A stretch of 64,000 nucleotides of DNA from Selaginella tamariscina (lineage: Eukaryota; Streptophyta; Lycopodiopsida; Selaginellales; Selaginellaceae): assembly GCA_003024785.1 (NCBI GenBank), contig PUQB01000861.1:20229-84228 (forward strand), in the 5' to 3' direction. Position numbers and translations under genes: made by a program. Below the pieces are notes generated by a model that was not told the origin of the DNA, did not search any database, and was given only the letters and a program-made list of their open reading frames with translations. Shown here in pieces: positions 11,871 through 59,399 of the stretch; position 1 is the first letter of the stretch; every line of letters starts with the position of its first letter.

Positions 11871-11879
11871 ATATGTGTG

Positions 11880-12760: not shown

Positions 12761-12788
12761 TTTTAAAATACTCATTGGAACTGGAGAG

Positions 12789-33777: not shown

Positions 33778-33849
33778 CTCTCCAGTTCCAATGAGTATTT
33801 TAAAATTGCATTTAATGTTATTCAAGTGATTCAAGCTGTTTAATATTAC

Positions 33850-35560: not shown

Positions 35561-35599
35561 ACACCCACACACACGCACGCGCTAATAATATAATGAAAG

Positions 35600-35771: not shown

Positions 35772-36935
<1,164 letters not shown>

Positions 36936-36937
36936 CC

Positions 36938-38500
36938 CCTCGAGCGGCGGGATTAATCCCGCCGCTATATGTTGGGGCCATGGCGGCGGGATTAATCCCG
37001 CCGCCGAGGCCCTTCAGGCATGGGTGAGCGGCGGGATTAATCCCGCCGCCGAGGCCCTTCACGCAGGCTATGGGCGGCGGGATTAATCCCGCCGCTCTAC
37101 GACAAACCGAAGAGCGGCGGGATTAATCCCGCCGCCCATAGCCTGCGTGAGGGGCCTCGGCGGCGGGATTAATCCCGCCGCTCATCCATGCCCTGCGCGG
37201 AATGCGGCGGGATTTATCTCGCCGGCAATGGCCTGTGTGAAGGTTCTAATGGGCGGGATTAATCCCGCCGGATTCCGCGCAGGGCATTTACAGGGAATGG
37301 GCGGCAGGATTAATTCCGCCGCTCTTCGGTTTGTCGTAGAGCGGCGGGATTAATCCCGCCGCCCAGGGAATTCACGCAGGACATGAACGCGGGATTAATC
37401 CGGCCCCACGCTCATGCCCTTCGCGGAGGGCGGCGGGATTAATCCCGCCGTTCATGTCCTGCGTGAATTCCCTGGGCGGCGGGATTAATCCCGCCCCCAC
37501 CCATCCCTGTTCAAAAATGCCGCAGCCAATATATATGTGTGAGCGCATGATTTACGAGAGGGCGGCGGGATTAGCCTCCGAACCTTCATTACCCGGTGGC
37601 GAGATTAATCTCCGAACCTTCATTACCCCATTGGTATGTTGAATCAATCCCGACTAACTCTGTCTGAGACGGAGAAGGTTTACAAAATACCAATGGAGGG
37701 AACCGAGAAGGGTGGTGGGATTAATTTCACCATCCCTTACATGGTGGGCGGGATTAATCCCGCCGCGTACGCATTCCCTGCGCGGAATCGGGCGGGATTT
37801 ATCCCGCCGCCATTGGCCTGCCTGAAGGGCCTAGGCGGCGGGATTAATCCCGCAAGATTTCGCACAGGGCATTGGCGTTCGGCGGGATTAATCCCGCCGA
37901 CTAAGGCCCGAGTGAAGGGCCTGGGAGGCGGGATTAATCCCGCCGAACGCCAATGCCCTGTGCGAAATCGGGCGGGATTTATCCCGCCGCCATTGGCCTG
38001 CCTGAAGTGCCTAGGCGTCGGAATTAATCCCGCCCGATTCCGCGCAGGGAATTGGCGTCCGGCGGGATTAATCCCGCCGCATAGGGATCGAGTGAAGGCC
38101 CTGGGCGGCGGGATTAATCCCGCCGAGTCTTCAATGCCTGTTGGAGAAATGAATCTCGCCACCCTTCCCTTTTTCCTCCATTGGTGAGTTGGACCAATCC
38201 CAAACGTTTCTGTCTAAGACGTAGAAGGTTTACAACATACCAATGGAGGGGACTGGGAAGGGTGGCGAGATTCATTTAACCATCCCTTACATGGTGGGCG
38301 AGATTAATCCCGCCTCCTTTCTGGAGTCACTGAAGGGGTGTGAGAAATAAATCCTGCCCAGTTCTCTCTGAGACCGAGAAGGGTGGCAAGATTAATTCCG
38401 CACTCCCGTTCAAGGCCTCCAGAAAGGTGGCGAGATTAATCCCGCCCACTCTTTCAGGAGGCATTGAAGGGGTGGCGAGATTAATCCCGCCGCACCTTCC
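36938..38500. repeat. Palindrome array 1, element C
   Basis: At least 15 exact GGCGGGATTAATCCCGCC-core units and about ten variants. Spacers are the GCAGGCTATGGGCGGC, CCTGCGCGGAATGCGG and GCCTGCCTGAAGGGCCTAGG classes, many in inverted pairs. The unit near the CCATTGGT-bounded insert (about 37629-37697) is more diverged. Confidence 0.95.
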
Positions 38501-38563
38501 ATGTGAATATATATGTGTATTAGTATATATAAGTTGCATATCTCATTTTATTTACTTTTATCA

Positions 38564-38677
38564 TCTCTTCATATTATTTCGAGTAAAAGCTAGGAATCTA
38601 TGTAAAACTGTCCAGAGCTCTCTCTTCATATTATTTCGAGTAAAAGCTAGGAATCTATGTAAAACTGTCCAGAGCTC
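38564..38677. repeat. 57-bp tandem duplication shared by C and D
   Basis: Two direct copies of a 57-bp unit that includes ATTATTTCGAGTAAAAGCTA and ends in the left arm of the conserved hairpin. Present in D (about 54231-54343), single-copy in A and B. It marks C and D as a recent sub-lineage. Confidence 0.85.
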
Positions 38678-38746
38678 ACATTTGTGGTGGTTCTAAAACG
38701 AAATGTTATCTTTTTTTGCACTAACACAAATGTGAGCTTCGGACAG
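38665..38746. repeat. Conserved 22-bp-arm hairpin, element C
   Basis: Left arm CTGTCCAGAGCTCACATTTG and right arm ending CGGACAG, as described for A and D. Because of the 57-bp duplication, a second partial left arm (CTGTCCAGAGCT) lies upstream near 38608. Confidence 0.65.
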
Positions 38747-38890
38747 TTAATTACGTCTACTTCTCTCTGTGTATTATTTTTGTATATTCGGGTTTATACA
38801 AGTGTGTGTGCGTTTTTATATAATTTATATTTATAGTGTATTATTTTGCAGAAGGAAGATTTGATCAAACAAGGAGATCGAGTCATTAGT

Positions 38891-41800
38891 ATGGAGTCGT
38901 CGTCAAATTCTGGGTAAGAATTAAAATAAAATCTGTTATACTCGGATACTTGAACTAATCATTTTTGTATTCAGATGTGGAATTGAGGTGACATTAAAGT
39001 CAAGAGCAGGAGAAGAGATGGGCAGGGGGATTCTGGAATCAACTTGGCCATATTTTAAGATAAATGGGAAGCGCATTGGAGCAACCATGGCTGCTGTCAA
39101 ATTAACCTCTGTCACATCTCATGGACAAGTAAAACAATGGAAAGTTGATTCGCTAGTCAAGCACCCGAAAGCAGGCTGCGAACCCAGATTGGACGATGCT
39201 CGACAGATATGCCTTGTTCCATCCAATGTCACGTTCTCGGATCCAGAGGTCGTCAGTTACAACATTAATCTCGGGTGGTTTTGTCGACTTGTGGATAATG
39301 ACGTTCACGTGTTCACTAATGATGTTGACCTTGGAGTTCTTCTTCAACTCAACGAAAGCCCATCTATGGAGGGGATCCATCTGGATGTTTACTTCGAAGA
39401 TCTTCAGACTCATCGAGTAGGTGTATTGTCAGGAGATATTGTTTCACAATACAGAAAATCAGCAAGTGGAGCAATCTTCCCTCTTGACATTGAAGAAGAA
39501 CACAGCGACATCATAAGGGAGATTGAGAAGGTGGCTCGGTCTCAGGTTCTCTACAGATCACGTTCAATTTGCTTAGGAAGCTTCGGGAGCTGGAGCAGTG
39601 TGCCGAGAACACTAGAACAGCTGCAGTCGGGGATCACACATGTTGATTCGGATCGCAAAAGAAAATCATCAATCGTTTTGTCAGCTGCACCTGTGGCATC
39701 TCATGCTGCAATAAGTCACAAGGAAATGATGTTGGATGATAAGATTTATCCTTGTAGGGTTAAATATTGCAGCGTCAACCCAAACTTCAATTACAGGCCA
39801 CTCAACCAGGAACGTGTAGCTGAGCTCATGGAGAAGATGAAAGGACGACAATTCTTATACCGTTCCACATAATGCTGTTTTGTGTCCATACTATGAAAGA
39901 AGGAAGGGTGCTGACAAAGTCTGGATCACAACACCAGAACAACTCATGAAGATTCAGACGGAGAATAAAAGATCTATCAAGTACTACATCATTAGTGGCC
40001 AGCACACAATAACGGCAGCCCAACGACTTCTCGAAGAACACAACAAAGGAACGATGGCAACAAAACTTTCCGAGCATACCCGTGAGAAGCTGACAAAAAG
40101 ATCGGCGTTTTTAGCTAAGCCGAATCTCACAATCGAGCAGTACCATAAGTTATCGGCGGAATGGGACGCTGCCGACACCAACCACTACAACAGCAAAATA
40201 TGGGAGAAGTTTAAACACACGCGAGCCGTGTGGGAATCTCTTCAGCGACCACAAAGAGCTACCGCAGGGAATACACAATCTGCGGAATACCGGGTAAGCA
40301 AATTGTTTGGGCGGGATTTATCTCGCCGGTATATTAATCTGTCTTTTTCCTCAGAGAGTTGAAGAAATTGCAGCAGTTGATTTTGCCCAGGTGGGCGGGA
40401 AGGAAACATCATTTCTGATGATGTTGATTTCTTGCCCCGAAGATAGGATCTTTGCCAAATGGTTGGGGATTATGGAATCCTTTTCAAAAGGAACACTGAA
40501 GAAGAAGCAGACAAGTGAAGGGGAGCCCTCAGAAAAGTCTGCAAAGAAACCCAGTAAGACGCCGAAGGCTAAGTCTGTTCAATCTACAAAGGATGTAGAC
40601 AACGATTTCAAGCTCACATGGTTGAAGCCTTTAAATGGAACAACGATGGAGGAGATGGAAGTCTTGGCTGATTTGGTGATCGATGGCAAACTACAAATCA
40701 ATAACAGCAGCCCAACCTCTCCTTTTCATCTCAAGGCAATGGAGTTGAAGACGGTCAGGCATTTCAAGGAGTGGTTGGGAATACACTGCCACAAACTGGG
40801 TTGGACCTCGACTTCAACATATGAAGAGGTTAGCAAATATTTGCATGTGACGAACGATGATATGCTTGTCGAATGGGTGAACCAATCGGAAGATCTAGGC
40901 AAGAATCTATTGCACGCCAACGCCAAAAAGGAGAACATTGGGATGACGCCTTCTCTTATGGCAGTCCTTCAGCAGCGAGAACCGAATTGAACCTTATAAA
41001 GGAGGATGCTACGAATCACGACAAGCCCTACAGATGTTTGTTGTTAGATTCGGAGACTTTATGGGGTAACATCACTGCTTGTAGGAAACCGTTTCAATTG
41101 TTCGTGATGGATCGGCGGGTGTCAAAAAATCTTTCGACAGATAGGGCACTAGAGGATCTGGTGGAGAAACTTAGCCGTGCAAGCATATACATAGAAGGTA
41201 TTTATTATTGAATTCATGCTTGCGCTCTTCACTGATACCTACTTTTTCAGGTATTTATTTCTTGATTCTTGCTCATGTCACCGATACTTTTGCCTTCGCC
41301 TTCGCCAAGAAGAATAGACATCGTTGGACAGGATTTTATATGAACGATGCTAATCCCAAGTGCATTGATACTGTTGTTCACTTGGTTGTTAGGAATGCGC
41401 CAAACAATTTCAAGCTTCCAAATGACTGGCCAGGCATCTGTTTGCACTCCAACGGCCCTGAACCTCCATCCGATACACCGATAGGTATGAGTGACGTATT
41501 CGGCAATGTACGTTATCCAAACATTACAAGTCAAGCGGCACGGAGCATCGTCAACTTGATCAGGGGTCCTCACAGTGATGCGTGGGTTTTTGACTACTGC
41601 ACTAGGGGGTCCGTCTTGAAGGAGTGTTACCTTCGGCATACATGTGTGTTTGCCGTTGAGAAGGATAAGACCATGGTTGAGGACCTGAACAAGTGGATAG
41701 ATTGGGTCTCAACTGAGTACCCCAACGATTCCATAAAGGCGTATTTGAGAAAGTTCCCTCCAGATAAGTGCGATAGCTCTGAAGGTGAATCTGGTTCAAT

Positions 41801-41996
41801 CTCGGAGTCTGAGAACGAACATCAATCAGATATTAGACCGGAAGTTATCTCGAGGAGTACAGAACATTCGCACACTCCAGGACCCATGGAAACATCAATA
41901 GAAGATGCAGAAGATCTTGAACCATCTCACAAGCGGCTTAGACCTTCTTCGCCTCATTCAGAAGGTAATAGCGAAGAAGAATTGATAATGAATTGA
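38891..41996 (+). pseudogene. ParB-like/DNA-methyltransferase-like fusion gene, element C (two single-base frameshifts)
   Basis: Nearly identical to D with the same four coding exons. An extra A near 39841 shifts the frame ahead of the ParB motif, and a one-base loss near 40978 shifts it in the third coding exon. All splice sites are intact. If these two indels are assembly errors, the gene would be as open as in D. Confidence 0.85.
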
Positions 41997-42199
41997 TAAG
42001 TGATGAATAGTTGTAAATGAGTGTAACATAAGGCATTTTTGTATATTTCTTTTATATTTGTACAGAAAATAAATTCTCAAGGATTAATGAAGCTTTTAGT
42101 TCAAACATGGGTCACACATTAACAAGGTAAATAATATACCTTGATAATTTTAAGGTCAGCTAATTATCATTTTGCAGATGTAATGAAATAATTGAGAAC

Positions 42200-43439
42200 A
42201 TGGATTTTCAGCATTGCCATGAGGTAAGAGAGGGGTTTGGCGACAATTTTTTGTGCCACATGTCAGAATGACAGAGTTCATGCAGGAAATGGATAATAAT
42301 GCAGCTCAAAACATCGTTACCATGGGGGCCACTTCAGTTTTTGCATCATCATTTTTATTGGCTTCAGTTCCGAAATCAATTTCTTCAGCGCATGCAATAT
42401 CTGAATCTTGTAAGGATGATGTACAATTAAATGATGAAGGGATAGGCAACGAAATAGTGGCAACGGATAAATGTGAAAGGGAGCAAACAAGTGATTTGCA
42501 AAGTATTCAAGAGGCAACGCTATCTCATGTTACTCATGGCCATATTGTGTTGTTGGATGTCAATGGTGTTCTGCTTCATCGACAAAGGCCCGAGGATAGA
42601 AAAACAGAAATCAAACAAGGAGATTTCATTCCTTGTCATGGTAAATTTCGATATGATATTATTTTTCGTCCAGGGTTGGATCGTCTCTTTCAAAAGCTTA
42701 AGGAGATGGGTGCGCTTGTGGGGATTTGGTCATGCATGCAGATTCATAACTTAACACCGCTGTTGAGTTTACTTAAGAAACATTGTAGTGTTGCAGAAGA
42801 GGTGATTCGTAAAGATTGGATTTTTGACCAGCGAATGTGTTATAAACCTCTCGAATTTCACAATATAGAAATGAAAGCAAGCCATACTTCTTCAAGAATG
42901 AAAGAATAATTGGGACTCATGGGGAGATCAGTCGCTTAAGGATAACGAAGAATGCACATATCTTAGTAGTAGACGACTCTCCTCAGAAGGCTATGCTCAA
43001 CCAAAACATTGCTTGTATTCATCCAATCACTTTCGATCCATATTCTGATATCGATATCATGGATGAGCTAGTGAACTACTTGGATACGTGCCTCAGAAAG
43101 AAGAATCTCGAAAATTTTTGTGAGCAGTATCCACCGTATCATACATTTCCTGAAGCTTTTCTTTCTCGTGATATTGAATTTTATAAAATGAAGGATAGCA
43201 ACCGGGCGCTTTATAATATTATTCTTAAGGAACGTCAGTTTTTAGATGAGCCTTTATGCAGACCTTCTTATACATCTTATGTATTAACAAGGATGGCAAC
43301 TCCCAATTGCATTCGTGAGAGTGTTAAGTGGTGGCAACAACATCAAGATATTGACCAAAATGATTTGATTAATCCGGAGAGTGATGATTTAGACAAAATG
43401 AAAAGATTTCTTTGTATGATAGAAAGAAAGTATTTATAA
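42200..43439 (+). pseudogene. FCP1/HAD-phosphatase-like gene, element C (frameshifted)
   Basis: Open from about 42253 through the HAD motifs (LLDVNGVLLH and RPGLDRLFQKLKE). A one-base loss near 42867 ends the frame early. The second half (42993-43439) is open in another frame and includes a three-base loss relative to D near 43266. The start is uncertain; the ATG at 42200 matches the MDFQHW start of A but is out of frame with the main frame. Confidence 0.8.
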
Positions 43440-43728
43440 AAAAATTAACATGTTGATAAGAAAATGATTTCATTTGTAATTATGTTTGATAGTATTTCTT
43501 CATTATTGTAAACTATTTTTAGAATAATATGAATATTCTAAGATATTTTAGGAATATTCCTTACTAAGTAAGGTTATTGAAGGATTAATTAATTAATTAA
43601 TTAATATTTAAGGCTTAATTACATATTAATTAAATGATTAATTAATAATTAAAACTTAAGTATTAATTAGTAATTTATTTTATATTCCCATTTTCACGTA
43701 TCATGCCCACTTTAGTTACAACGTGCAT
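43440..43728. mobile_element. FCP1-side subterminal region and TIR, element C
   Basis: AT-rich with GAATATTC, GGAATATTCC, CCTTACTAAGTAAGG and TTAATTAA runs, ending in the terminal repeat at 43702-43728. No gene. Confidence 0.8.
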
Positions 43729-44409: not shown

Positions 44410-44436
44410 ATGCAAGTTGTAACTAAAATGGGCATG
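44410..44436 (+). repeat. Terminal inverted repeat, transposase side, element D
   Basis: Reads ATGCAA, GTTGTAACTAAAA, TGGGCATG, identical to the matching end of C (28689-28715). The right end of D (59373-59399) is its inverse with two substitutions and one extra G (TTTAGGTTAC). Confidence 0.9.
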
Positions 44437-44915
44437 GCTATAGTCCCATTTCCTAATAATTAGCAATTTTAGCTATTTAATTAGCATTTTCTAATATTAA
44501 AGGAATATTCTTTAGAATATATGTTTGAAAAGAGAATATTCTTTAGAATATTCTATTTTGTATTCTACCCTTTAATAAATTATAGCATTCATTGAACAAA
44601 AATTAATAACATTAAAAAGTAGAATGTATTAAATTATATAATATATTGCCTAATATAACAATTAAGGAAGAGCATAAGAGGTACATTATATAAATATTGA
44701 TGTTGTTATTAAAATATTAATATTTAAATATAACATTATTAATTAAAAATTTGTAGTAGTAATAATATATATATAAAATCCTATAATAATATAGTCAATC
44801 TTCCATATCATTTTTTAAATTTATATAGTTAAGTATACAATTTGGTACTATTATTAAAGAGTTTATAATAATTATGAATATTAAATATATGATATTTTAT
44901 AATTTTGTAATTGCT
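44437..44915. other. AT-rich subterminal region, transposase side, element D
   Basis: Same as 28716-29194 of C, including clustered AATATTCTTTAGAATATT palindromes. No gene. Confidence 0.75.
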
Positions 44916-47900
44916 TTAAGCTTCAGAAAACATACATTCCCTTGCAGTTTTGTTAATCGTGACTTTATCAACGCTTCTTGACATCCACCCATATCGAATG
45001 GATTTAACATTTATAAAACATGCTGGGTCTTTTTGATTGGGAGACCATGTTTTCTCTAGGCATCCATTATATCTTTCGCTCTCCTTCTCGTGTCGCCTTT
45101 TTTGTGGTTTGAACCATGCAACCTTAACAATACTATTTTTTGCGATTACTTCAGGTGTGTCGATAATTTGACCCATCCAAATAGGCTGATTATATGACGC
45201 ATCTGGAGTAATGAGAACCATCATTAGTTTTTGAAGATCCTTGCAGCAATCAAAAGTATGCTTTAGGTTTTTGGTTCCTTTGTCCAACAAAGTGTGGGGT
45301 TTGCACTTCCACATCACTACTGGCTTCTATGTCGTCTGTGCTCAGTGATGTCATTTCAATCTCCTCTCGCCACCTTGTTTTAGGCCAGAAAGGGTGTTGC
45401 AATTCTGTACTTGTGACAGTAGGCCCTTCCAACTCTCGAACAACAGTCTCCCAATAGTTGACCACATGCTTATATAGTTCTGAGTAACCAGTTGCCTTAT
45501 CAGAATTCTTTGGCATCGATTTTTGAACCCATGCCACATATTTTTTGATGCCATCAATAATAACCTCTTGTTCCTTGAGCTGGGCACTCAATGGAATAGG
45601 GTCTGGTTGTCCTTCTGGGAGAAGTGGCTTTCCATCCTCTCCACTTTTGAAGAGCATTAAGCCCTCTTTCGGTAACCACTCCTGCTCTGATGGCCGTAAC
45701 TTGTACTGCATAATAGGTATACCATCTCGTATGGAGAAAAAGAATTGTAGCGGCACAAGGTGACCAACTAAAGAATCACTCCCTTCTTTTATATACTCCT
45801 TGAGAAATTTTTTGAAGTCTGGCACCTCAGTCACAAGCAAAGCACAACTTTTTTTGGAGATGCAATTTTCAAAAAGATTCATCATATGCGGTAAGGTAAG
45901 TGCACTTGTCCTTTTTGTAGAGTTGGAGACCTTGCTGAAGAACGCATCAATATCTTCATGAGTGTGACCAACCATAAGGAAAACTGAGCGTGATTGTTTC
46001 AAACACACCTTTGGCAACAAGCATTGACAAGTATGCTAGCACATATCTAGAAAATAAAAGTAAGTATGAGCTTGAGAAACCCTTAAGTAAAATGATTTAC
46101 CTATTTTTGTTCTCGCCTGCACAATTATCCATCTGTAAAAGCAAATGACGAGGAAGCTTATTTGATGTTGAGGACACATGTACACTATTTGAGCTAGATC
46201 CCTCCACTGAACCTGAACTCTCAACAGGGCCATCTGTTTTTTGTGCAGGTTGCTGACAATGCCTCTCATATTCCCAAGTAGCCTCAAGTGCAGACGTGTT
46301 CATGAGAGCATTATGTAAAGGTTGAAGGTGTTGTTTCTTCACTTTGAGATCACTGATAGGATTTGTCTGTGAGTGGGCTTCAAGGTTTCTGAAACACATG
46401 GCTAACGACCCAATAGTGAAATTGGAGTCGCTAGACCAATGTGGAAGTGAAAAGTGTCCATATGACTCACAACCGTGTCCATGTGTTAGCACACCTGTTA
46501 AAGAAATCGGAAGTTTCATGACATTTCCAAGGCACTTTGGTGTTGCAAAGAGCTTTGGAATGCTGGTCTTTGAATGATCCATCTTGTCATGGATCAAGCA
46601 CAGGTACTCTGATGGGCGTGACACAGAAAGCATGCGGTGTGCATAGTACTGAGACCGACAAGTTTGTTGTGCAATCATGTGGGCCTCCATCTTCCTTTGA
46701 ATGGTAGTGATCTCCACCAAGGTTTTTGCACAAGCCTCTGCAGCCTTCAATGATGTACAAGTGTCACACTTAGAAAAGCTAGAGTGTTTTGCAATCTCCA
46801 CATCCTTAAAATGAGTATTCCATATGTTGTTGAAGGTACCAGTGCAGATTGCTTGGAGCCCCATCAAACTGAGGCACTTGTTCACATGTTCACACAGTTT
46901 CAATTGAGTGTAGATTGAAGGTAAAACCTTGAGATTTTCCCTGACCCCTGCATTTGTGGTTCGGCATTTGTGAGGCATCCTGTCTGCATTTGCTTCCACA
47001 AAAGCCTTGAGTATCTCTATGGCTGCCATGATGTGAGAGCGGGTTTTGACCAAGCCAGTGTTCCCATGAACTGAGGTTCGCGCTCCATCTAGCCACTCAT
47101 CCCTCCGACGGTAGAACGTGGTCTTTGGGATCCCGTATATACTGTACCAAGCTTTGAAGCAGATGGCCACCTTATTAAATACCATGGATGTACTCTGATA
47201 ACCTGTGTCCGAGGCCATTCCATCAATACACCCAGTTAGTGCAGCATATACAAACTCATGCCTTTGCTTTTGGGTGAGCATACGAAAGACATGTCTACAT
47301 TGGGTAATTTCATTCCGGTCTGCCATCTGACAACACTTCTTCTTGCAACAGTCAATCGTGGAAATGCTCGTAACACTTTCGGAAGATGTAGGATCCATCT
47401 TTACCCTCTTGCTGAAACTTGCAGGGGAAGATCTACAACCCATGAATCGCCTTTTTCTTACAATAGGACCAATGCAAGGAACCTCTTCAAATATGAGTTG
47501 TTCTTCCGGGTTGTTATTATTGAAATCCAACCCAGAATATGTTGAACCATCTTGCCGTCTTAATTCAGATGTTCGCCACCTCACGAGGGATCCAGGATAC
47601 AATGTGCCATTAGGTGAAACCTCTGTCACAACTACACCCACGAAGTCGGACCCTAGTTTCTCTTCTGACACTGCTTCCATTGGATTTATAGCTGTGATGA
47701 TGCCTCTTCCGACTTCAATCTCACGAAGAAAGAGAATCACCTCATCCATCACAGCAGGCAAGCCATCATCTGGTAAACTCGTGCTACTATTTGTTTGTGA
47801 CTCTGCATATTTTGTGTCAGCCTTGACTTCATCCAAATTCCACAATACAGGAGAACCCTCCTCAAATTCCATTCCCAGAACCTCAACATGCTTGAAAATG

Positions 47901-48037
47901 GTGTTCACCCATACGTACACACAAGATCCTTGGGAAATATTGTGACATGATGCATTATTATCTCGAACTTCCACAGTTCCAATGCCAACTATCTCGTTGT
48001 TCCGAAGAAGACATACTTTATCTCCAGTATTAAACAT
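44916..48037 (-). CDS. DUF7869-like putative transposase, element D (about two one-base frameshifts)
   Basis: About 1,020 codons, with a 54-bp GT-AG intron at 46047-46100. The first exon (48037 to 46101) is fully open. Residues about 5-70 and 100-145 are two related beta-rich modules (GDKVCLLRNNEIVG and VILFLREIEVGRG) that resemble the small Tnp1/En-Spm-like transposase module. Cys-rich segments follow (CCKKKCC near 234; SKCDTC near 425). A DDE/RNase-H-like core is suggested by HDKMDHSKT (about 485), LLLQMDNCAGENKNR at the splice site, and GHTHEDID after it, the signature I associate with DUF7869 proteins. A one-base insertion near 45978, just before GHTHEDID, and one near 45253 break the second exon. 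Likely mobilises the element; the activity is inferred. The ATG at 48037 follows a conserved AG acceptor. Confidence 0.8.
46047..46100 (-). other. Intron of the transposase-like gene, element D
   Basis: On the gene strand it starts GTAAATCATTTTAC and ends TTTATTTTCTAG. It splits the codon after MDNCAGENKN, and joining restores R-Y-V-L. The same intron is in C (30322-30375) and A (about 16178-16230). Confidence 0.85.
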
Positions 48038-48184
48038 ATTGTCCTGCACATAAATAATTGTATTATTTATGATATCTGTTTATGCAATATTTTTAGAAAT
48101 CTGAATTACGGTTACTTAATAATATGCATATGCAATAATACATAATTATGTTTAGAGATAATATCTCATGTTTGATTAATACAA

Positions 48185-49010
48185 CTGATGGGCGGGATTA
48201 ATCCCGCCAACGAATCCCTCCGACGAGGAACGGTCGGCGGGATTAATCCCGCCGCCGACTCAACCCCTTCGGAGAGAGTCGGCGGGATTAATCCGCCGCC
48301 GACTACCCCTTCGAGAGAGAGTCGGCGGGATTAATCCCGCCTTGGACTCCCTCCGACAAGGAAGAGCCGGGGGATTAATCCCGCCGCACTCCTCCTCGGG
48401 GGAGTCCGGCGGGATTAATCCCGCCGACTCTCTCCGACGAGGAAGGGAGTCCGGCGGGATTAATCCCGCCGACTCTCCTCCGGAGAAGAGTCGGCGGGAT
48501 TAATCCCGCCGGACTCTTCCTCGTCGGAGAGGCGGCGGATTAATCCCGCCGGACTCCCTTCCTCGTCGGAGGAAGAGGCGGCGGGATTAATCCCGCCGGC
48601 TCTTCCTTGTCGGAGGGAGTCCAAGGCGGGATTAATCCCGCCCACAATTCTTACGACGGGGAATGGGTGGCGGGATTAAACCCGCACATAACTCTCTCCA
48701 AAACTATGATTTCAAAGAGATCTCGGGATAAATCCTGTCCCCAAATCTTTAAAACAGTGAAGTGGTGGCGAGATTAATCCCGCCACCCCTTCCCTGCCTC
48801 CTAAAATGGTTGGCGGGATTAATCCCGCCGACAACTCTTTCTAATAAATTCTGGTAACTCTTCATCAGTTGAGAAGGTTATCGACGGGATTAATCCCGCC
48901 ACTCTTTTTCAGTGGCGGAGAAGCATTGCCCGGGAGATGGTGGCGGGATTAATCCCGCCACTTCTTCAAAGAGGCAAAAAAGAAATGGCCGGATTAATCC
49001 CGCCGCCCCG
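48185..49010. repeat. Palindrome array 2, element D
   Basis: About 17 units of GGCGGGATTAATCCCGCC. The central units differ from C in number and spacer order, and several have lost a base (GGCGGGATTAATCCGCC), whereas the flanks are near-identical to C. The array is a hot spot of change. Confidence 0.95.
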
Positions 49011-49174
49011 GTTAACCTAGAATATTAAGTTAAAAGGATATTTAAACGTGATAAATCCCTAACGGAATATATTATAATCCTAATGCATTTCTAAACCCCT
49101 AAATTGTAATTTTAAGAGAGAATGTAAGAGAGTGAATCTTAATAAGTATTTTTAAATTTGTTTATAATACTTAC

Positions 49175-49470
49175 TTGTAAACAGCACTGAAGGCGCCGTG
49201 CTTTCCTATAAAGAATAGCACCCAATTTATCTCGCTCCTGAGATGATCACTATGAAGAAAAAAGAAGATCTAAAGAGTGAAAAATACAGAAATGAAGAAA
49301 CCCTTGCCGGAGAAAGAACCAGATCTGAATTTGAGTGGGAAATTAAATGCATTTTCAAATTTATATGTCAGACCGACAATACATATGTCAGAAATTCAAA
49401 TTTTTAAAAAGAACAGAAAATAAAATTTAAGATGAGTTGACACAAATATCCGACACTCTGACATATATAC
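49175..49470 (-). promoter_or_regulatory. Putative TATA box and leader exon of the transposase-like gene, element D
   Basis: Minus-strand leader with ATATATA near 49463 and donor at 49174, as in the other copies. It has a one-base loss relative to C near 49229, further evidence that the small leader frame is not coding. Confidence 0.5.
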
Positions 49471-49529
49471 TCTCCAGTTCCAATGAGTATTTTAAAATTG
49501 CATTTAATGTTATTCAAGTGATTCAAGCT

Positions 49530-50370
49530 GTTTAATATTACGAAATTTTAGACTATATTCTACATTCTTAGTATTCAAGTATATTTATATTATATATATA
49601 TATAAATATATACTTATACAATAAATAAATTGATATATTATTATGTATCATTTAAAATATATTCATAGTCTGTTTATTATTATTATTTTCTTAATTACTC
49701 GAGTATTTAGTTTTCATTTCCTAGTATCAATGGGATATTCTTTAATATTTTATTAATATTTGAAGAATATTCTAATATTAAACCTGATTATCATAATTAA
49801 ATTAGTCTTGTTCTTAATTATTGCAGTAATTATTCTACATTTGTATATATTAATGGGATTTTCTCAATTAATTTGTTATTATTTCAAGAATATTCATGTG
49901 TTAAACCTTATTATCAATATTAAATTAATACACACTATGAACATATTTTAAATTATACATAATAATACATCATTTTATCTAATATATAGTCATATATAGT
50001 TTTAATAATATATATATTAATATCATTTCCTTAATTACTTGAGTAATTAATCTTCTTTATATTAATGGGATATTCTTTATTATTTTCTTATTATTCCAAG
50101 AATATTCCAATATTAAACATGATTATGATAATTAATTTAGTTAATTATTTGAGTACTTAATTTACATTTGTATATATTAATGGGATTTTCTCAATTAATT
50201 TCTTATTATTTCAAGAATATTTCAATGTTAAACCTTTTTATCAATATTAAATTAATATATATTATTAAAACTATATATGGCTATATATTAGATAAAATCA
50301 TATATTATTATGTATAATTTAAAATATGTTCCTAGTGTGTTTATTAATTTTATTTTCTTAATTATTCGAT
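49530..50370. repeat. AT-rich core with imperfect repeats, element D
   Basis: Near-identical to 33850-34680. No supported gene; the hydrophobic 63-codon frame at 49760 lies in the repeat units. Confidence 0.75.
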
Positions 50371-51250
50371 GTTTGTTTTGCACACATATATAAACACAAT
50401 CATAAATTTACACACGCATTACAAGAACTTACAAAAACACATATGCACACACATGCACAACCCTAAACCAAACTGAAGAAATATGTTGCTTCTTTATTGA
50501 AAACATCATGTTCAACGCATGTATGATATATGTACTCAATCTGTGTATATGTAACACATTGAATTTACATGTGTAATATTTATATTAAGCTTGTTGGGAG
50601 CAAACCCTAAACCCTAAACCCTAAACCCTAATATGTAACACAATGAATTTACTCATGTAATATGTATGTATGTCTGTGTGTATACACGTGTGCATGTATA
50701 TATGTGTACTCTGTATGTATATATGTGTACTTTCTGTCTTCTCTCATACATACACACCATGCATGATCCATGTTAATATGTACTGTCTCTCTTCTCTCAA
50801 ACATACACACCATGCATGATCTATAATATGTACTCGGTCTCTCTAATATTATGTACTAATATGTATGTATGTCTGTGTGTATAATACACACCATGCATGA
50901 TCCATATTAATATGTACTGTCTCTCTTCTCTCATATACTATGTATGTATATCTGTGTATAATATGTGTAAGTATATATGTGTACTAATATATGCAATGTG
51001 TACAAAAATAATTTTTCAACACTCTCTCTTCTCTCATACATACACACCATGCATGATCCATCCTAAATCCAAAACCCTAAACCCTAAACCCTAAACCCAT
51101 GTAATATGTGTGTATGTCTGTGTGTATACACGTGTGTATGTATATATTATGTGTATTAATATATGCAATGTGTACACATGAAACTTTAACACTCTCATGG
51201 ACACACACATGTTAAATCCCTGCATGATTTATATTTTTGAGGTGTATGTG
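50370..51250. repeat. Telomere-like and CATGCATG tandem repeat zone, element D
   Basis: CCCTAAA runs at about 50604-50631 and 51073-51098, with CATGCATGATCCAT tandem units between. It lies between the two divergent leaders. Confidence 0.75.
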
Positions 51251-51289
51251 ATACACCCACACACGCACGCGCTAATAATATAATGAAAG

Positions 51290-51463
51290 AATATTCGTTT
51301 AGGGCGAATCTATATTTTATTCTTTTTAGGGTTTAAGTATATTCTCAGAAGGAATATTCTATTAGGGTTGATATATATATTTAATTCCTTTAGGGTTTAG
51401 GTATATTCTTAGGGTTTCAAGAGGCGGCGGCTGTGAAATCGGCGGCGGCGGCTGTGCACACAG
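51290..51463 (+). promoter_or_regulatory. Putative leader exon and donor of the ParB-like gene, element D
   Basis: GGGTTTAAGTATATTC, GGGTTTAGGTATATTC, then GGCGGCGGCTGTGAAATC and the donor CACACAG/GTGAGATCT at 51464. Conserved in all four copies that reach this region. Confidence 0.5.
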
Positions 51464-51471
51464 GTGAGATC

Positions 51472-51502
<31 letters not shown>

Positions 51503-51724
51503 ATATGTATAGGAGTGTGCGTATAATTTTTTTTCTTAGTTTTATCTCTCGCACACACACGCACACTCCTGTGTATGTATATGTGTCTGTATGATTTATT
51601 TGTTTCGCTCACACACGCATACACACGATATACATATACACATATATATATATATACCTATATACATATATACATACATATATTATGTGTACCAGTATCT
51701 GTAAATTTTTTTTATTGATCTTGC

Positions 51725-51815
<91 letters not shown>

Positions 51816-52600
51816 ACCAGTATCTGTAAATTTTTTTTTATTGATCTATCTCTCCCACACACACGCGCACTGCTTTACACACACACACACACACACACAG
51901 ATATATATATATATATATCAATGCATATTAACAAATAGTATACAACACTAGTTTATATATATGCTTATATATTCATAATATACACACATATATATATGTG
52001 TGTGTTTATCTGTATAATTTTATTTATTTATTAGTTTTATCTCTCGCACACACACGCACACTCCTGTGTATGTATATGTGTGTGTGTGTGTGTTTGTTTA
52101 TCTGTATGATTTTATTTGTTTCGCTCACACACGCATACACACAATATACATATACACATATATATATACCTATATACATATATACATACATACAACACTA
52201 GTTTATATATATGCTTATATATTCACAGACTCTCTCTCTTTCTCTATAGATTATATATCTATATACACACATATATGTGTGTGTTTATCTGTATAATTTT
52301 ATTTATTTATTAGTTTTATCTTTGCACACACACGCACACTCCTGTGTATATATATATGTGTGTGTGTGTGTTTGTTTATCTGTATGATTTTATTTGTTTC
52401 GCTCACACGCATACACACGATATACATATACACACATATATATACCTATGTACACACATATATTAGGTGTACCAGTACTGTATAAGTTTATTTATTTATC
52501 TATCTCTTGCACACACACGTACACTCCTATACATACATACATACATACATATATATACACACACACACATATATATGTGTGTGTTTTTATCTCGCTAAGC
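51464..52600. repeat. CA/TA microsatellite block, element D
   Basis: Same order of words as C with shorter (CA)n and (TA)n tracts. Low-complexity frames only. Confidence 0.9.
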
Positions 52601-52606
52601 CCCTCG

Positions 52607-54160
52607 AGCGGCGGGATTAATCCCGCCGCTATATAGTTGGGGCCATGGCGGCGGGATTAATCCCGCCGCCGAGGCCCTTCAGGCATGGGTGAGCGGCGGG
52701 ATTAATCCCGCCGCCGAGGCCCTTCACGCAGGCTATGGGCGGCGGGATTAATCCCGCCGCTCTACGACAAACCGAAGAGCGGCGGGATTAATCCCGCCGC
52801 CCATAGCCTGCGTGAGGGGCCTCGGCGGCGGGATTAATCCCGCCGCTCATCCATGCCCTGCGCGGAATGCGGCGGGATTTATCTCGCCGGCAATGGCCTG
52901 TGTGAAGGTTCTAATGGGCGGGATTAATCCCGCCGGATTCCGCGCAGGGCATTTACAGGGAATGGGCGGCAGGATTAATTCCGCCGCTCTTCGGTTTGTC
53001 GTAGAGCGGCGGGATTAATCCCGCCGCCCAGGGAATTCACGCAGGACATGAACGCCGGGATTAATCCGGCCCCACGCTCATGCCCTTCGCGGAGGGCGGC
53101 GGGATTAATCCCGCCGTTCATGTCCTGCGTGAATTCCCTGGGCGGCGGGATTAATCCCGCCCCCACCCATCCCTGTTCAAAAATGCCGCAGCCAATATAT
53201 ATGTGTGAGCGCATGATTTACGAGAGGGCGGCGGGATTAGCCTCCGAACCTTCATTACCCGGTGGCGAGATTAATCTCCGAACCTTCATTACCCCATTGG
53301 TATGTTGAATCAATCCCGACTAACTCTGTCTGAGACGGAGAAGGTTTACAAAATACCAATGGAGGGAACCGAGAAGGGTGGTGGGATTAATTTCACCATC
53401 CCTTACATGGTGGGCGGGATTAATCCCGCCGCGTACGCATTCCCTGCGCGGAATCGGGCGGGATTTATCCCGCCGCCATTGGCCTGCCTGAAGGGCCTAG
53501 GCGGCGGGATTAATCCCGCAAGATTTCGCACAGGGCATTGGCGTTCGGCGGGATTAATCCCGCCGACTAAGGCCCGAGTGAAGGGCCTGGGAGGCGGGAT
53601 TAATCCCGCCGAACGCCAATGCCCTGTGCGAAATCGGGCGGGATTTATCCCGCCGCCATTGGCCTGCCTGAAGTGCCTAGGCGTCGGAATTAATCCCGCC
53701 CGATTCCGCGCAGGGAATTGGCGTCCGGCGGGATTAATCCCGCCGCATAGGGATCGAGTGAAGGCCCTGGGCGGCGGGATTAATCCCGCCGAGTCTTCAA
53801 TGCCTGTTGGAGAAATGAATCTCGCCACCCTTCCCTTTTTCCTCCATTGGTGAGTTGGACCAATCCCAAACGTTTCTGTCTAAGACGTAGAAGGTTTACA
53901 ACATACCAATGGAGGGGACTGGGAAGGGTGGCGAGATTCATTTAACCATCCCTTACATGGTGGGCGAGATTAATCCCGCCTCCTTTCTGGAGTCACTGAA
54001 GGGGTGTGAGAAATAAATCCTGCCCAGTTCTCTCTGAGACCGAGAAGGGTGGCAAGATTAATTCCGCACTCCCGTTCAAGGCCTCCAGAAAGGTGGCGAG
54101 ATTAATCCCGCCCACTCTTTCAGGAGGCATTGAAGGGGTGGCGAGATTAATCCCGCCGCA
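52607..54160. repeat. Palindrome array 1, element D
   Basis: Near-identical to 36938-38500 in C, with the same unit order. At least 15 exact cores plus variants. It lies between the microsatellite and the conserved hairpin, inside the inferred 5-prime intron of the ParB-like gene. Confidence 0.95.
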
Positions 54161-54330
54161 CCTTCCATGTGAATATATATGTGTATTAGTATATATAAGT
54201 TGCATATCTCATTTTATTTACTTTTATCATCTCTTCATATTATTTCGAGTAAAAGCTAGGAATCTATGTAAAACTGTCCAGAGCTCTCTCTTCATATTAT
54301 TTCGAGTAAAAGCTAGGAATCTATGTAAAA

Positions 54331-54413
54331 CTGTCCAGAGCTCACATTTGTGGTGGTTCTAAAACGAAATGTTATCTTTCTTTTGCACTAACACAAATGT
54401 GAGCTTCGGACAG
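54331..54413. repeat. Conserved 22-bp-arm hairpin, element D
   Basis: Left arm 54331-54352 (CTGTCCAGAGCTCACATTTG then TG) and right arm 54392-54413 (CACAAATGTGAGCTTCGGAC then AG) pair at 20 of 22 positions around a 39-bp loop. The loop is also conserved. Confidence 0.7.
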
Positions 54414-54557
54414 TTAATTACGTCTACTTCTCTCTGTGTATTATTTTTGTATATTCGGGTTTATACAAGTGTGTGTGCGTTTTTATATAATTTATATTTA
54501 TAGTGTATTATTTTGCAGAAGGAAGATTTGATCAAACAAGGAGATCGAGTCATTAGT

Positions 54558-57500
54558 ATGGAGTCGTCGTCAAATTCTGGGTAAGAATTAAAATAAAATC
54601 TGTTATACTCGGATACTTGAACTAATCATTTTTGTATTCAGATGTGGAATTGAGGTGACATTAAAGTCAAGAGCAGGAGAAGAGATGGGCAGGGGGATTC
54701 TGGAATCAACTTGGCCATATTTTAAGATAAATGGGAAGCGCATTGGAGCAACCATGGCTGCTGTCAAATTAACCTCTGTCACATCTCATGGACAAGTAAA
54801 ACAATGGAAAGTTGATTCGCTAGTCAAGCACCCGAAAGCAGGCTGCGAACCCAGATTGGACGATGCTCGACAGATATGCCTTGTTCCATCCAATGTCACG
54901 TTCTCGGATCCAGAGGTCGTCAGTTACAACATTAATCTCGGGTGGTTTTGTCGACTTGTGGATAATGACGTTCACGTGTTCACTAATGATGTTGACCTTG
55001 GAGTTCTTCTTCAACTCAACGAAAGCCCATCTATGGAGGGGATCCATCTGGATGTTTACTTCGAAGATCTTCAGACTCATCGAGTAGGTGTATTGTCAGG
55101 AGATATTGTTTCACAATACAGAAAATCAGCAAGTGGAGCAATCTTCCCTCTTGACATTGAAGAAGAACACAGCGACATCATAAGGGAGATTGAGAAGGTG
55201 GCTCGGTCTCAGGTTCTCTACAGATCACGTTCAATTTGCTTAGGAAGCTTCGGGAGCTGGAGCAGTGTGCCGAGAACACTAGAACAGCTGCAGTCGGGGA
55301 TCACACATGTTGATTCGGATCGCAAAAGAAAATCATCAATCGTTTTGTCAGCTGCACCTGTGGCATCTCATGCTGCAATAAGTCACAAGGAAATGATGTT
55401 GGATGATAAGATTTATCCTTGTAGGGTTAAATATTGCAGCGTCAACCCAAACTTCAATTACAGGCCACTCAACCAGGAACGTGTAGCTGAGCTCATGGAG
55501 AAGATGAAGGACGACAATTCTTATACCGTTCCACATAATGCTGTTTTGTGTCCATACTATGAAAGAAGGAAGGGTGCTGACAAAGTCTGGATCACAACAC
55601 CAGAACAACTCATGAAGATTCAGACGGAGAATAAAAGATCTATCAAGTACTACATCATTAGTGGCCAGCACACAATAACGGCAGCCCAACGACTTCTCGA
55701 AGAACACAACAAAGGAACGATGGCAACAAAACTTTCCGAGCATACCCGTGAGAAGCTGACAAAAAGATCGGCGTTTTTAGCTAAGCCGAATCTCACAATC
55801 GAGCAGTACCATAAGTTATCGGCGGAATGGGACGCTGCCGACACCAACCACTACAACAGCAAAATATGGGAGAAGTTTAAACACACGCGAGCCGTGTGGG
55901 AATCTCTTCAGCGACCACAAAGAGCTACCGCAGGGAATACACAATCTGCGGAATACCGGGTAAGCAAATTGTTTGGGCGGGATTTATCTCGCCGGTATAT
56001 TAATCTGTCTTTTTCCTCAGAGAGTTGAAGAAATTGCAGCAGTTGATTTTGCCCAGGTGGGCGGGAAGGAAACATCATTTCTGATGATGTTGATTTCTTG
56101 CCCCGAAGATAGGATCTTTGCCAAATGGTTGGGGATTATGGAATCCTTTTCAAAAGGAACACTGAAGAAGAAGCAGACAAGTGAAGGGGAGCCCTCAGAA
56201 AAGTCTGCAAAGAAACCCAGTAAGACGCCGAAGGCTAAGTCTGTTCAATCTACAAAGGATGTAGACAACGATTTCAAGCTCACATGGTTGAAGCCTTTAA
56301 ATGGAACAACGATGGAGGAGATGGAAGTCTTGGCTGATTTGGTGATCGATGGCAAACTACAAATCAATAACAGCAGCCCAACCTCTCCTTTTCATCTCAA
56401 GGCAATGGAGTTGAAGACGGTCAGGCATTTCAAGGAGTGGTTGGGAATACACTGCCACAAACTGGGTTGGACCTCGACTTCAACATATGAAGAGGTTAGC
56501 AAATATTTGCATGTGACGAACGATGATATGCTTGTTGAATGGGTGAACCAATCGGAAGATCTAGGCAAGAATCTATTGCACGCCAACGCCAAAAAGGAGA
56601 ACATTGGGATGACGCCTTCTCTTATGGCAGTCCTTCAGCAGCGAAGAACCGAATTGAACCTTATAAAGGAGGATGCTACGAATCACGACAAGCCCTACAG
56701 ATGTTTGTTGTTAGATTCGGAGACTTTATGGGGTAACATCACTGCTTGTAGGAAACCGTTTCAATTGTTCGTGATGGATCGGCGGGTGTCAAAAAATCTT
56801 TCGACAGATAGGGCACTAGAGGATCTGGTGGAGAAACTTAGCCGTGCAAGCATATACATAGAAGGTATTTATTATTGAATTCATGCTTGCGCTCTTCACT
56901 GATACCTACTTTTTCAGGTATTTATTTCTTGATTCTTGCTCATGTCACCGATACTTTTGCCTTCGCCTTCGCCAAGAAGAATAGACATCGTTGGACAGGA
57001 TTTTATATGAACGATGCTAATCCCAAGTGCATTGATACTGTTGTTCACTTGGTTGTTAGGAATGCGCCAAACAATTTCAAGCTTCCAAATGACTGGCCAG
57101 GCATCTGTTTGCACTCCAACGGCCCTGAACCTCCATCCGATACACCGATAGGTATGAGTGACGTATTCGGCAATGTACGTTATCCAAACATTACAAGTCA
57201 AGCGGCACGGAGCATCGTCAACTTGATCAGGGGTCCTCACAGTGATGCGTGGGTTTTTGACTACTGCACTAGGGGGTCCGTCTTGAAGGAGTGTTACCTT
57301 CGGCATACATGTGTGTTTGCCGTTGAGAAGGATAAGACCATGGTTGAGGACCTGAACAAGTGGATAGATTGGGTCTCAACTGAGTACCCCAACGATTCCA
57401 TAAAGGCGTATTTGAGAAAGTTCCCTCCAGATAAGTGCGATAGCTCTGAAGGTGAATCTGGTTCAATCTCGGAGTCTGAGAACGAACATCAATCAGATAT

Positions 57501-57663
57501 TAGACCGGAAGTTATCTCGAGGAGTACAGAACATTCGCACACTCCAGGACCCATGGAAACATCAATAGAAGATGCAGAAGATCTTGAACCATCTCACAAG
57601 CGGCTTAGACCTTCTTCGCCTCATTCAGAAGGTAATAGCGAAGAAGAATTGATAATGAATTGA
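54558..57663 (+). CDS. ParB-like / DNA-methyltransferase-like fusion protein, element D
   Basis: Four coding exons (54558-54580, 54642-55959, 56021-56864, 56918-57663) joined by GT-AG introns give one open frame of 976 codons. The ATG follows an AG acceptor at 54518, and the frame is open back to it, so an upstream start is possible. Residues about 270-360 fit a ParB/sulfiredoxin-type domain: PLNQERVAELMEKMKDD, then KYYIISGQHTITAAQRL, like the GHRR box. Residues 490-520 are Lys-rich (KKPSKTPKAKS), perhaps nuclear targeting. Residues 676-900 resemble a beta-class DNA methyltransferase in circular order: GIYFLILAHVTDTFAF strand-helix, then motif I as VFDYCTRGSVLKE (841 on) and motif II as FAVEKD. 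Where DPPY would stand I see LLLDSETLWG, so catalysis is doubtful. An acidic, Ser-rich tail ends the protein. Binding or modification of the element's own DNA is inference. Confidence 0.85.
55960..56020 (+). other. Intron with embedded palindrome relic, element D
   Basis: 61-bp GT-AG intron of the ParB-like gene. Positions 55976-55993 read GGCGGGATTTATCTCGCC, the array palindrome with two changes. Identical in C (around 40309-40326) and present in A and B. Confidence 0.85.
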
Positions 57664-57934
57664 TAAAGTGATGAATAGTTGTAAATGAGTGTAACATAAG
57701 GCATTTTTGTATATTTCTTTTATATTTGTACAGAAAATAAATTCTCAAGGATTAATGAAGCTTTTAGTTCAAACATGGGTCACACATTAACAAGGTAAAT
57801 AATATACCTTGATAATTTTAAGGTCAGCTAATTATCATTTTGCAGATGTAATGAAATAATTGAGAACATGGATTTTCAGCATTGCCATGAGGTAAGAGAG
57901 GGGTTTGGCGACAATTTTTGTGCCACATGTCAGA
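57664..57934 (+). promoter_or_regulatory. Spacer and putative 5-prime intron of the FCP1-like gene, element D
   Basis: After the ParB-like stop there is an AATAAA-like stretch (GAAAATAAATTC near 57734). A possible small exon ends at ACAAG/GTAAATAATA (57796), followed by the acceptor CATTTTGCAG at 57845. This fits a separate transcription unit, but read-through from the upstream gene cannot be excluded. Confidence 0.4.
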
Positions 57935-59110
57935 ATGACAGAGTTCATGCAGGAAATGGATAATAATGCAGCTCAAAACATCGTTACCATGGGGGCCACT
58001 TCAGTTTTTGCATCATCATTTTTATTGGCTTCAGTTCCGAAATCAGTTTCTTCAGCGCATGCAATATCTGAATCTTGTAAGGATGATGTACAATTAAATG
58101 ATGAAGGGATAGGCAACGAAATAGTGGCAACGGATAAATGTGAAAGGGAGCAAACAAGTGATTTGCAAAGTATTCAAGAGGCAACGCTATCTCATGTTAC
58201 TCATGGCCATATTGTGTTGTTGGATGTCAATGGTGTTCTGCTTCATCGACAAAGGCCCGAGGATAGAAAAACAGAAATCAAACAAGGAGATTTCATTCCT
58301 TGTCATGGTAAATTTCGATATGATATTATTTTTCGTCCAGGGTTGGATCGTCTCTTTCAAAAGCTTAAGGAGATGGGTGCGCTTGTGGGGATTTGGTCAT
58401 GCATGCAGATTCATAACTTAACACCGCTGTTGAGTTTACTTAAGAAACATTGTAGTGTTGCAGAAGAGGTGATTCGTAAAGATTGGATTTTTGACCAGCG
58501 AATGTGTTATAAACCTCTCGAATTTCACAATATAGGAAATGAAAGCAAGCCATACTTCTTCAAGAATGAAAGAATAATTGGGACTCATGGGGAGATCAGT
58601 CGCTTAAGGATAACGAAGAATGCACATATCTTAGTAGTAGACGACTCTCCTCAGAAGGCTATGCTCAACCAAAACATTGCTTGTATTCATCCAATCACTT
58701 TCGATCCATATTCTGATATCGATATCATGGATGAGCTAGTGAACTACTTGGATATGTGCCTCAGAAAGAAGAATCTCGAAAATTTTTGTGAGCAGTATCC
58801 ACCGTATCATACATTTCCTGAAGCTTTTCTTTCTCGTGATATTGAATTTTATAAAATGAAGGATAGCAACCGGGCGCTTTATAATATTATTCTTAAGGAA
58901 CGTCAGTTTTTAGATGAGCCTTTATGCAGACCTGGTCTTATTACATCTTATGTATTAACAAGGATGGCAACTCCCAATTGCATTCGTGAGAGTGTTAAGT
59001 GGTGGCAACAACATCAAGATATTGACCAAAATGATTTGATTAATCCGGAGAGTGATGATTTAGACAAAATGAAAAGATTTCTTTGTATGATAGAAAGAAA
59101 GTATTTATAA
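57935..59110 (+). CDS. FCP1/SCP-type HAD-phosphatase-like protein, element D
   Basis: About 390 codons from the ATG at 57935; the frame is open from 57905, and the MDFQHW start of A (57868 here) is out of frame. A nonconserved N-terminal 80 residues is followed by an FCP1-homology core: HIVLLDVNGVLLHR (motif I), RPGLDRLFQKLKEMGALVGI then WS (motif II), and ILVVDDSPQKAMLNQN (motif IV). The usual DxDGT/V of these phosphatases is DVNGV here, so the second Asp, the general acid-base, is Asn; a variant or non-catalytic protein is likely. The C-terminal 130 residues are conserved between copies. A Ser/Thr phosphatase-like or protein-binding role in the host nucleus is inferred from the family only. 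Confidence 0.8.
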   Translation: MTEFMQEMDNNAAQNIVTMGATSVFASSFLLASVPKSVSSAHAISESCKDDVQLNDEGIGNEIVATDKCEREQTSDLQSIQEATLSHVTHGHIVLLDVNGVLLHRQRPEDRKTEIKQGDFIPCHGKFRYDIIFRPGLDRLFQKLKEMGALVGIWSCMQIHNLTPLLSLLKKHCSVAEEVIRKDWIFDQRMCYKPLEFHNIGNESKPYFFKNERIIGTHGEISRLRITKNAHILVVDDSPQKAMLNQNIACIHPITFDPYSDIDIMDELVNYLDMCLRKKNLENFCEQYPPYHTFPEAFLSRDIEFYKMKDSNRALYNIILKERQFLDEPLCRPGLITSYVLTRMATPNCIRESVKWWQQHQDIDQNDLINPESDDLDKMKRFLCMIERKYL

Positions 59111-59399
59111 AAAATTAACATGTTGATAAGAAAATGATTTCATTTGTAATTATGTTTGATAGTATTTCTTCATTATTGTAAACTATTTTTAGAATAATAT
59201 GAATATTCTAAGATATTTTAGGAATATTCCTTACTAAGTAAGGTTATTGAAGGATTAATTAATTAATTAATTAATATTTAAGGCTTAATTACATATTAAT
59301 TAAATGATTAATTAATAATTAAAACTTAAGTATTAATTAGTAATTTATTTTATATTCCCATTTTCACGTATCATGCCCACTTTAGGTTACAACGTGCAT
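59111..59399. mobile_element. FCP1-side subterminal region and TIR, element D
   Basis: Same AT-rich sequence as 43440-43728, ending in the terminal repeat at 59373-59399. There is one extra G in the repeat (TTTAGGTTAC) compared with C. No gene. Confidence 0.8.

Follow-up and report, generated by a model that had tools for sequence, protein, structure and literature searches.

Dense arrays of an 18-bp palindrome, GGCGGGATTAATCCCGCC, occupy the centre of a transposon family in Selaginella tamariscina, beside the promoters of two divergent genes, one for a transposase-like and the other for a ParB-like protein. The best explanation, to which we assign a probability of roughly 0.43, is that a dimeric DNA-binding protein made by the element docks on the arrays, which would serve as internal cis-regulatory sites through which it acts on both promoters. 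The position of the arrays, their copy number and the conservation between units are observed; which protein binds, that it does so as a dimer and what it brings about are inferred.

Structure and copy number of the transposon

The window (the whole stretch of 64,000 nucleotides that was analysed) holds three full copies of the transposon, and element fragments besides. The main features are listed below in window coordinates.

44410..59399, plus strand: whole transposon copy holding array B, 14,990 bp, with sharp ends common to three dispersed copies
44410..44436, plus strand: left terminal inverted repeat, ATGCAAGTTGTAACTAAAATGGGCATG
45250..48049, minus strand: DUF7869 transposase-like gene, with two main ORFs (46097-48049 and 45250-46020) and its ATG at 48037
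48191..49004, no strand: array A, 18 units, 10 of them exact
49005..52609, no strand: AT-rich spacer between arrays A and B, with simple repeats and CCCTAAA runs
52610..54157, no strand: array B, 29 units, 15 of them exact, with nested inverted repeats in the spacers
54558..57663, plus strand: accessory gene for a ParB-like protein of 976 aa, split into four exons
55976..55993, plus strand: lone palindrome unit GGCGGGATTTATCTCGCC within the second intron of the ParB-like gene
57905..59110, plus strand: NIF/FCP1-type phosphatase-like ORF, 401 aa (PF03031, E 5.5e-11)
59372..59399, minus strand: right terminal inverted repeat, with one additional base in this copy
28689..43728, plus strand: second transposon copy, 15,040 bp, with arrays at 32465-33310 and 36946-38491
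2821..17816, minus strand: third transposon copy, reversed, 14,996 bp, with arrays at 7972-9580 and 13256-14124

The order within the element is the transposase-like gene (minus strand), array A, the AT-rich spacer, array B, the ParB-like gene (plus strand, opposite to the transposase-like gene) and the phosphatase-like ORF. Both arrays are central and adjoin the divergent genes, array A lying 154 bp upstream of the transposase-like ATG (48037) and array B 401 bp upstream of the ParB-like ATG, at distances of 3,781 and 5,242 bp from the element ends. The spacer between them contains plant-type telomere-like CCCTAAA runs near 50605 and 51075, and a Ty3/gypsy-like polyprotein fragment, recognized by eye, adjoins the right end of the element (59400-61500).

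The inverted ends read ATGCA(A/C)GTTGTAACTAAA(A/G)TGGGCATG. With the first base removed, this pattern has 2,298 exact occurrences genome-wide (1,178 + 1,120), corresponding to about 1,150 element equivalents. A 4-bp target duplication is found at the exact boundary in 7 of the 15 copies with both ends, as against 1 of 210 mismatched pairs. The other eight copies are without the duplication, perhaps because their ends are mispaired or recombined; the copy at 44410-59399 shows none. Given its inverted ends and fixed-length target duplication, the element is a cut-and-paste DNA transposon. The copy at 28689-43728 is nested in an older copy of the same family, interrupting the 5' region of that copy's transposase gene, and is flanked by the 4-bp duplication ATAA.

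The palindrome arrays

At up to 2 mismatches, GGCGGGATTAATCCCGCC has 156 matches in the window, while shuffled sequences gave an expectation of 0.00 and a largest count of 0 (n=100). There are 91 exact palindromes and 185 units at up to 5 mismatches, a threshold that places a floor of 72% on identity to the consensus. Eight arrays of 15–29 units each (7972-9580, 13256-14124, 20631-21610, 27848-28559, 32465-33310, 36946-38491, 48191-49004 and 52610-54157) contain 178 of these 185 units, and 7 lie outside arrays. An earlier note on this DNA had described dense palindrome arrays here, two per full element, of 15-25 units each, with a core kept where spacers vary. The arrays are real, with 29 units within 52610-54157 and none by chance, and there are indeed two in each of the three copies that have both ends in the window. 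The unit number agrees with array A, which has 18-20 units in these copies, and is too low for array B (29).

The kept core was likewise borne out between units. In five arrays, palindromes within one array are 80–95% pairwise identical, as against 39–43% for the unit flanks in their better orientation, with shuffled flanks at 29–30%. The inner GATTAATC is kept best, in 326–349 of 353 distinct unit contexts per position versus 290–330 of 353 at the outer positions. Of the spacings between units (n=170), 95 are 44–46 bp and 140 are 36–53 bp. The single unit GGCGGGATTTATCTCGCC also occurs at 23353 and 40310, in reverse at 6194, and at position 5217 of locus L105; in the four window copies and in L105 its place is the second intron of the gene for the ParB-like protein.

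The 300.7-Mb host genome contains 27,128 exact copies of GGCGGGATTAATCCCGCC and 0 of the control motif, which was the same motif read backwards. In a prokaryote collection of 257 Gb the motif is present in 49 stretches, and in viral contigs in 1. The 18-bp motif belongs to the transposon family described here and is rare elsewhere. Genome-wide, each element equivalent accounts for about 23.6 exact palindromes, close to the 25–30 in the three full window copies, and these totals make it unlikely that arrays spread without elements. A wide spread of arrays without the gene, which the earlier note had named as a result that would speak against its reading, has left no sign in the genome totals of 27,128 palindromes and 2,298 exact ends.

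The agreement of these two numbers also bears on the idea that a host transcription factor, for example of the E2F or homeodomain type, binds the arrays, the element having borrowed its sites to drive genes. E2F-type factors recognize the half-site GGCGGGA and homeodomain-type factors TAATCC, and the palindrome is composed of two inverted GGCGGGATT half-sites in arrays that adjoin promoters. However, each full element copy of the window carries at least 47 units, which is far above what a promoter needs, and the motif follows the element ends in copy number; a host factor is an unlikely explanation.

Within the spacers, inverted repeats are nested in one another and reach 97% complementarity, one example being an inverted repeat of 85 nt (96%) with 6 nt separating its arms. 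Such foldback structure, together with the variation in units and in array length, would fit if the arrays were a functionless, self-amplifying satellite-like repeat whose palindromes and foldback promote inversion and amplification, and the decay of the palindromes after insertion, which is not slower than that of spacers against one reference (see below), is in line with this. On the other hand, conservation is restricted to 18 bp with nearly random flanks, both promoters have an array next to them in every full copy within the window, and symmetric double changes are not in excess: symmetric positions are changed in 5 of 45 two-mismatch units, with 3.9 expected. We consider a satellite origin quite improbable. 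The same lack of symmetric covariation between the arms makes a hairpin-driven correction of one arm by the other unlikely.

Transposase-like and phosphatase-like genes

The transposase-like ORFs are matched by PF25273 (DUF7869), with Pfam E values of 2.7e-12 and 2.7e-18. Eight relatives of the gene were found at 28–36% identity, one of which has a weak likeness to Transposase_23 (E 6.6e-4, just below the cut-off); viral contigs searched with the transposase gave no relative. The N-terminal parts of the transposase (46097-48049, minus) and of the ParB-like protein (54655-55300, plus) align with an hhalign score of 20.6, the top five of 100 shuffles being 19.5, 19.5, 19.8, 20.6 and 21.3. The comparison is suggestive only, and the two N-terminal parts may be related. 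In the phosphatase-like ORF, the stretch at what we take to be the position of the nucleophile motif reads DVNGV.

The adjacent transposase-like gene raises the alternative that the arrays are internally placed transposase-binding or synapsis sites required for excision. Their pairing in the full window copies would suit synapsis, as would the motif clusters, separated by a few kb, that recur along contig C1. In En/Spm-type elements, however, such arrays are subterminal, and those described here are thousands of base pairs from either end. A transposase-binding array was one of the possibilities raised in the earlier note; one of the subterminal kind finds no support, with 3.8 and 5.2 kb between the arrays and the element's termini, and there is little likelihood that internal sites of this sort explain them.

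The ParB-like accessory gene

The four exons of the ParB-like gene were delimited with splice sites chosen by eye (54558-54580, 54642-55959, 56021-56864 and 56918-57663). A segment of the protein, KYYIISGQHTITAAQRL, aligns over 17 columns with a bacterial ParB profile built from 19 sequences (19 of the 22 loci fetched), with an hhalign score of 24.6 and a maximum of 18.3 in 100 shuffles. When a bacterial ParB profile was run against six-frame segments of the window and the fetched loci, the matches listed were all exons of the ParB-like gene (E 0.15-0.88). No ParB match for the protein was found in Pfam (to E 1), PHROGs, NCBIfam, PDB or phages, its matches in PHROGs and NCBIfam being at E 0.095-0.63 only, and a search of the host genome with PF02195 was empty. 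Protein searches with the whole ParB-like protein (under a length limit that excludes single-exon ORFs) and with exon 2 gave none; neither phages searched with exon 2 nor viral contigs searched with exons 2 and 4 contained a relative. Likeness to ParB is weak, though above the level of chance. Rfam gave 0 matches. In the host genome, light-harvesting proteins are matched by 26 pieces, which, with the plant-type telomere-like repeats of the spacer, points to a photosynthetic eukaryote.

Bacterial ParB carries a CTP-binding GERR-type box. The stretch aligned to it reads SGQHTITAA, with GQHT replacing GERR and the ParB arginines missing, and a Pfam scan of 10 ORFs, 6 belonging to copy 44410-59399, found no ParA ATPase partner. 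The protein has no DPPY-type or FxGxG methyltransferase motif and no Pfam methyltransferase match, and its hhalign score against a methyltransferase profile of 8 sequences (10.5) is below the shuffle median of 11.6; a degenerate methyltransferase relative may nevertheless be present within it. The earlier note had assigned the arrays to an element encoding a ParB-like domain fused to a methyltransferase-like fold, and had offered a parS-like or centromere-like site as one function. The arrays do belong to an element encoding a ParB-like protein, weak as the likeness is, the methyltransferase fold finds no backing in motif or profile score, and a parS or centromere site is unlikely, given the missing arginine box and the lack of ParA among the ORFs scanned.

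A separate abundant repeat of the host genome matches PF01555 (N6/N4 methyltransferase; e.g. G000:C565:331665-331829). The matches cover nearly always profile positions ~165-220 and are above the Pfam cut-off, with a best E of 2.3e-8 among 150 scored of 739 candidates; this repeat may represent a further transposon family whose methyltransferase is better preserved.

These observations bear on a further alternative, a ParB-parS-like partition or DNA-modification system in which the protein methylates the palindromes or clamps on them as a prokaryotic ParB or ParB-methyltransferase would. It would draw on the ParB-like segment and on the description of this protein class in algal transposons in the available part of PMC12477816. 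The absence of methyltransferase motifs and of a profile match, the GQHT in place of GERR, and the lack of ParA among the 10 ORFs all speak against it, and we judge it improbable; a feature of the mutation pattern that could favour it is taken up below.

Exon 2 was scored in 93 copies out of 6,579 candidates, at 90–100% identity. The match is stop-free in 85 of the 93 and has an internal stop in 8. In two older copies of the gene, amino-acid changes are fewer than neutral, with ratios of 63:45 (p=0.0016) and 35:29 (p=0.0028) against a neutral 2.66:1, though these copies have 14 and 20 gap positions, which possibly add alignment errors. Constraint is not apparent in a third comparison (13:7, p=0.45), and the 3:3 of 30 young copies carries no information.

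Decay and mutation of the palindromes

With w53 as reference, the differences in 26 distinct young copies add up to 55 among 7,677 palindrome sites and 88 among 17,643 spacer sites, sums that are row totals and not independent events; palindromes here differ as often as spacers or more. With w8r as reference, most of these copies have fewer differences in palindromes than in spacers. Variable sites in collinear, unshuffled units number 19 of 414 in palindromes versus 51 of 613 in spacers (p=0.023), or 5 of 396 versus 30 of 591 on a stricter count (p=0.0013); with the other reference the values are 20 of 414 versus 48 of 607 (p=0.056) and, stricter, 13 of 396 versus 33 of 579 (p=0.09). The earlier note had held that palindromes decaying at the same rate as spacers would count against its reading. 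On this point the outcome is mixed: fewer changes in palindromes were found in the collinear units in all four settings (p 0.0013–0.09) and for the most part against w8r, and not against w53.

Distinct events per site amount to 0.09–0.17 (A/T), 0.27–0.34 (CpG) and 0.19–0.22 (other G/C) in palindromes, and to 0.06, 0.47 and 0.15–0.22, respectively, in the unique flank. Because these rates are of the same order, decay of the palindromes after insertion is not clearly slowed, and a neutral reading fits too. Any transposon copy should decay neutrally once it has been inserted, and constraint would show in the transmitted lineage, with which the contrast between units is in line.

By distinct events, CpG leads in transitions, and its faster change in the flank suggests host CpG methylation; C5 DNA methylase matches in the host genome number 3 pieces. 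The commonest transition variant, in all arrays, affects the non-CpG positions 4/13, the middle base of the GGG/CCC arms (bracketed in GGCG[G]GATTAATC[C]CGCC). In unit contexts there are transitions in 81 of 706 half-sites at these positions versus 41 per CpG pair, and after merging to 108 contexts the figures are 25 versus 12 and 11. The excess could stem from variant units passed on by inheritance, from CHG methylation by the host, from a recognition-site position at which change is tolerated, or from specific modification. The last of these would favour the partition or modification system described above. However, in CHG context positions 4/13 reach 10/46 and 9/46 distinct events, above flank CHG (2/23 and 2/21) and no more than level with palindrome CpG (34/142 and 30/147), and inherited variants or host CHG methylation may be explanation enough.

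Proposed role of the arrays

In the docking-site model, an element-encoded dimer would coat the arrays cooperatively. The first candidate is the ParB-like accessory protein; the second is the transposase, whose N-terminal part possibly shares a domain with it. Coating would mark the element as self and would either control the transposase and accessory promoters or shield both from host silencing. The palindrome would be maintained because it is the recognition site, leaving the spacers free to shuffle.

The model agrees with the central, promoter-adjacent position of the arrays, with unit identity that is confined to 18 bp and best kept in the inner GATTAATC, with the collinear-unit contrast, with the stop-free exon 2 of 85 of the 93 scored copies, with the constraint on the ParB-like gene in two older copies, with the restriction of the motif to this family, and with the ParB-like signal itself. 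Precedents, as described in the available parts of PMC12477816 and PMC5735166, are an Ectocarpus ParB-methyltransferase gene opposite the transposase and the binding of motifs by VANC. Against the model stand the weak ParB homology with its lost arginine box, the young-copy decay relative to w53, the flank-like rates, the unit-detection floor, the neutral-looking comparison of the ParB-like gene (13:7), the methyltransferase score below the shuffle median and the variants at positions 4/13.

A more specific version would be a self-recognition pair, in which a ParB-derived protein without the bacterial chemistry cooperatively coats the promoter-flanking palindrome arrays, shielding the element from silencing or switching its genes. 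We regard this version as possible, if somewhat doubtful.

Comparison with known systems

Bacterial ParB proteins have a palindromic target, parS, similar in length to the 18-bp palindrome, and the protein described here shares a weak box-II likeness with them. Unlike the bacterial system, there are dozens of sites per element, the arginines of the box are missing, the setting is a eukaryotic transposon, and no ParA is found among the ORFs scanned.

En/Spm (CACTA) transposons carry subterminal arrays of TNPA sites. Dense arrays of a short motif, a second protein and the weak Transposase_23 likeness of one transposase relative are common features, whereas the arrays here are central, the unit is an 18-bp palindrome, the target duplication is 4 bp and the ends are not CACTA.

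VANDAL elements are of the MULE type and their VANC protein is not known to have a ParB-like part. Sola1 elements produce a 4-bp target-site duplication, a feature shared by the element described here, the transposase of which matches DUF7869 (PF25273) and is at most a putative Sola1 transposase. According to the available part of PMC5735166, VANC of Arabidopsis VANDAL21, the functional counterpart, is encoded by a transposon, binds short motifs arranged in tandem within that same transposon and brings about a loss of methylation. The two systems have in common a transposon-encoded accessory protein and short motifs accumulated in tandem in non-coding DNA. The VANC motif is 9 bp and non-palindromic, in contrast to the 18-bp palindrome, and anti-silencing, a demonstrated feature of VANC, is only proposed for the element here.

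The closing comparison is with Sola1-1_Ec32 of Ectocarpus, a giant transposon that, in the part of PMC12477816 available, has a ParB-methyltransferase gene opposite its transposase; it is proposed there that ParB-methyltransferase proteins of algal transposons bind the element that encodes them and mark it, and that part names no target site. No word in the main text of that paper begins with 'palindrom' and no palindrome array is mentioned in it, nor is one described as a ParB-methyltransferase target in the literature found, coverage of which lay mostly outside subscription journals. As far as the available part goes, both are giant DNA transposons with an accessory gene opposite the transposase, its product carrying a ParB-like domain in Ectocarpus and a weakly ParB-like segment here, and for both proteins binding to the own transposon has been proposed. 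They differ in size (15.0 kb and 976 aa here, 21.5 kb and 1104 aa in Sola1-1_Ec32) and in the methyltransferase, which is part of the Sola1-1_Ec32 accessory protein and of which no motif was found in the element here. For ParB-like transposon proteins, the present family offers a dense, high-copy and concrete candidate target, so that binding, modification and anti-silencing are directly testable with a short DNA probe.
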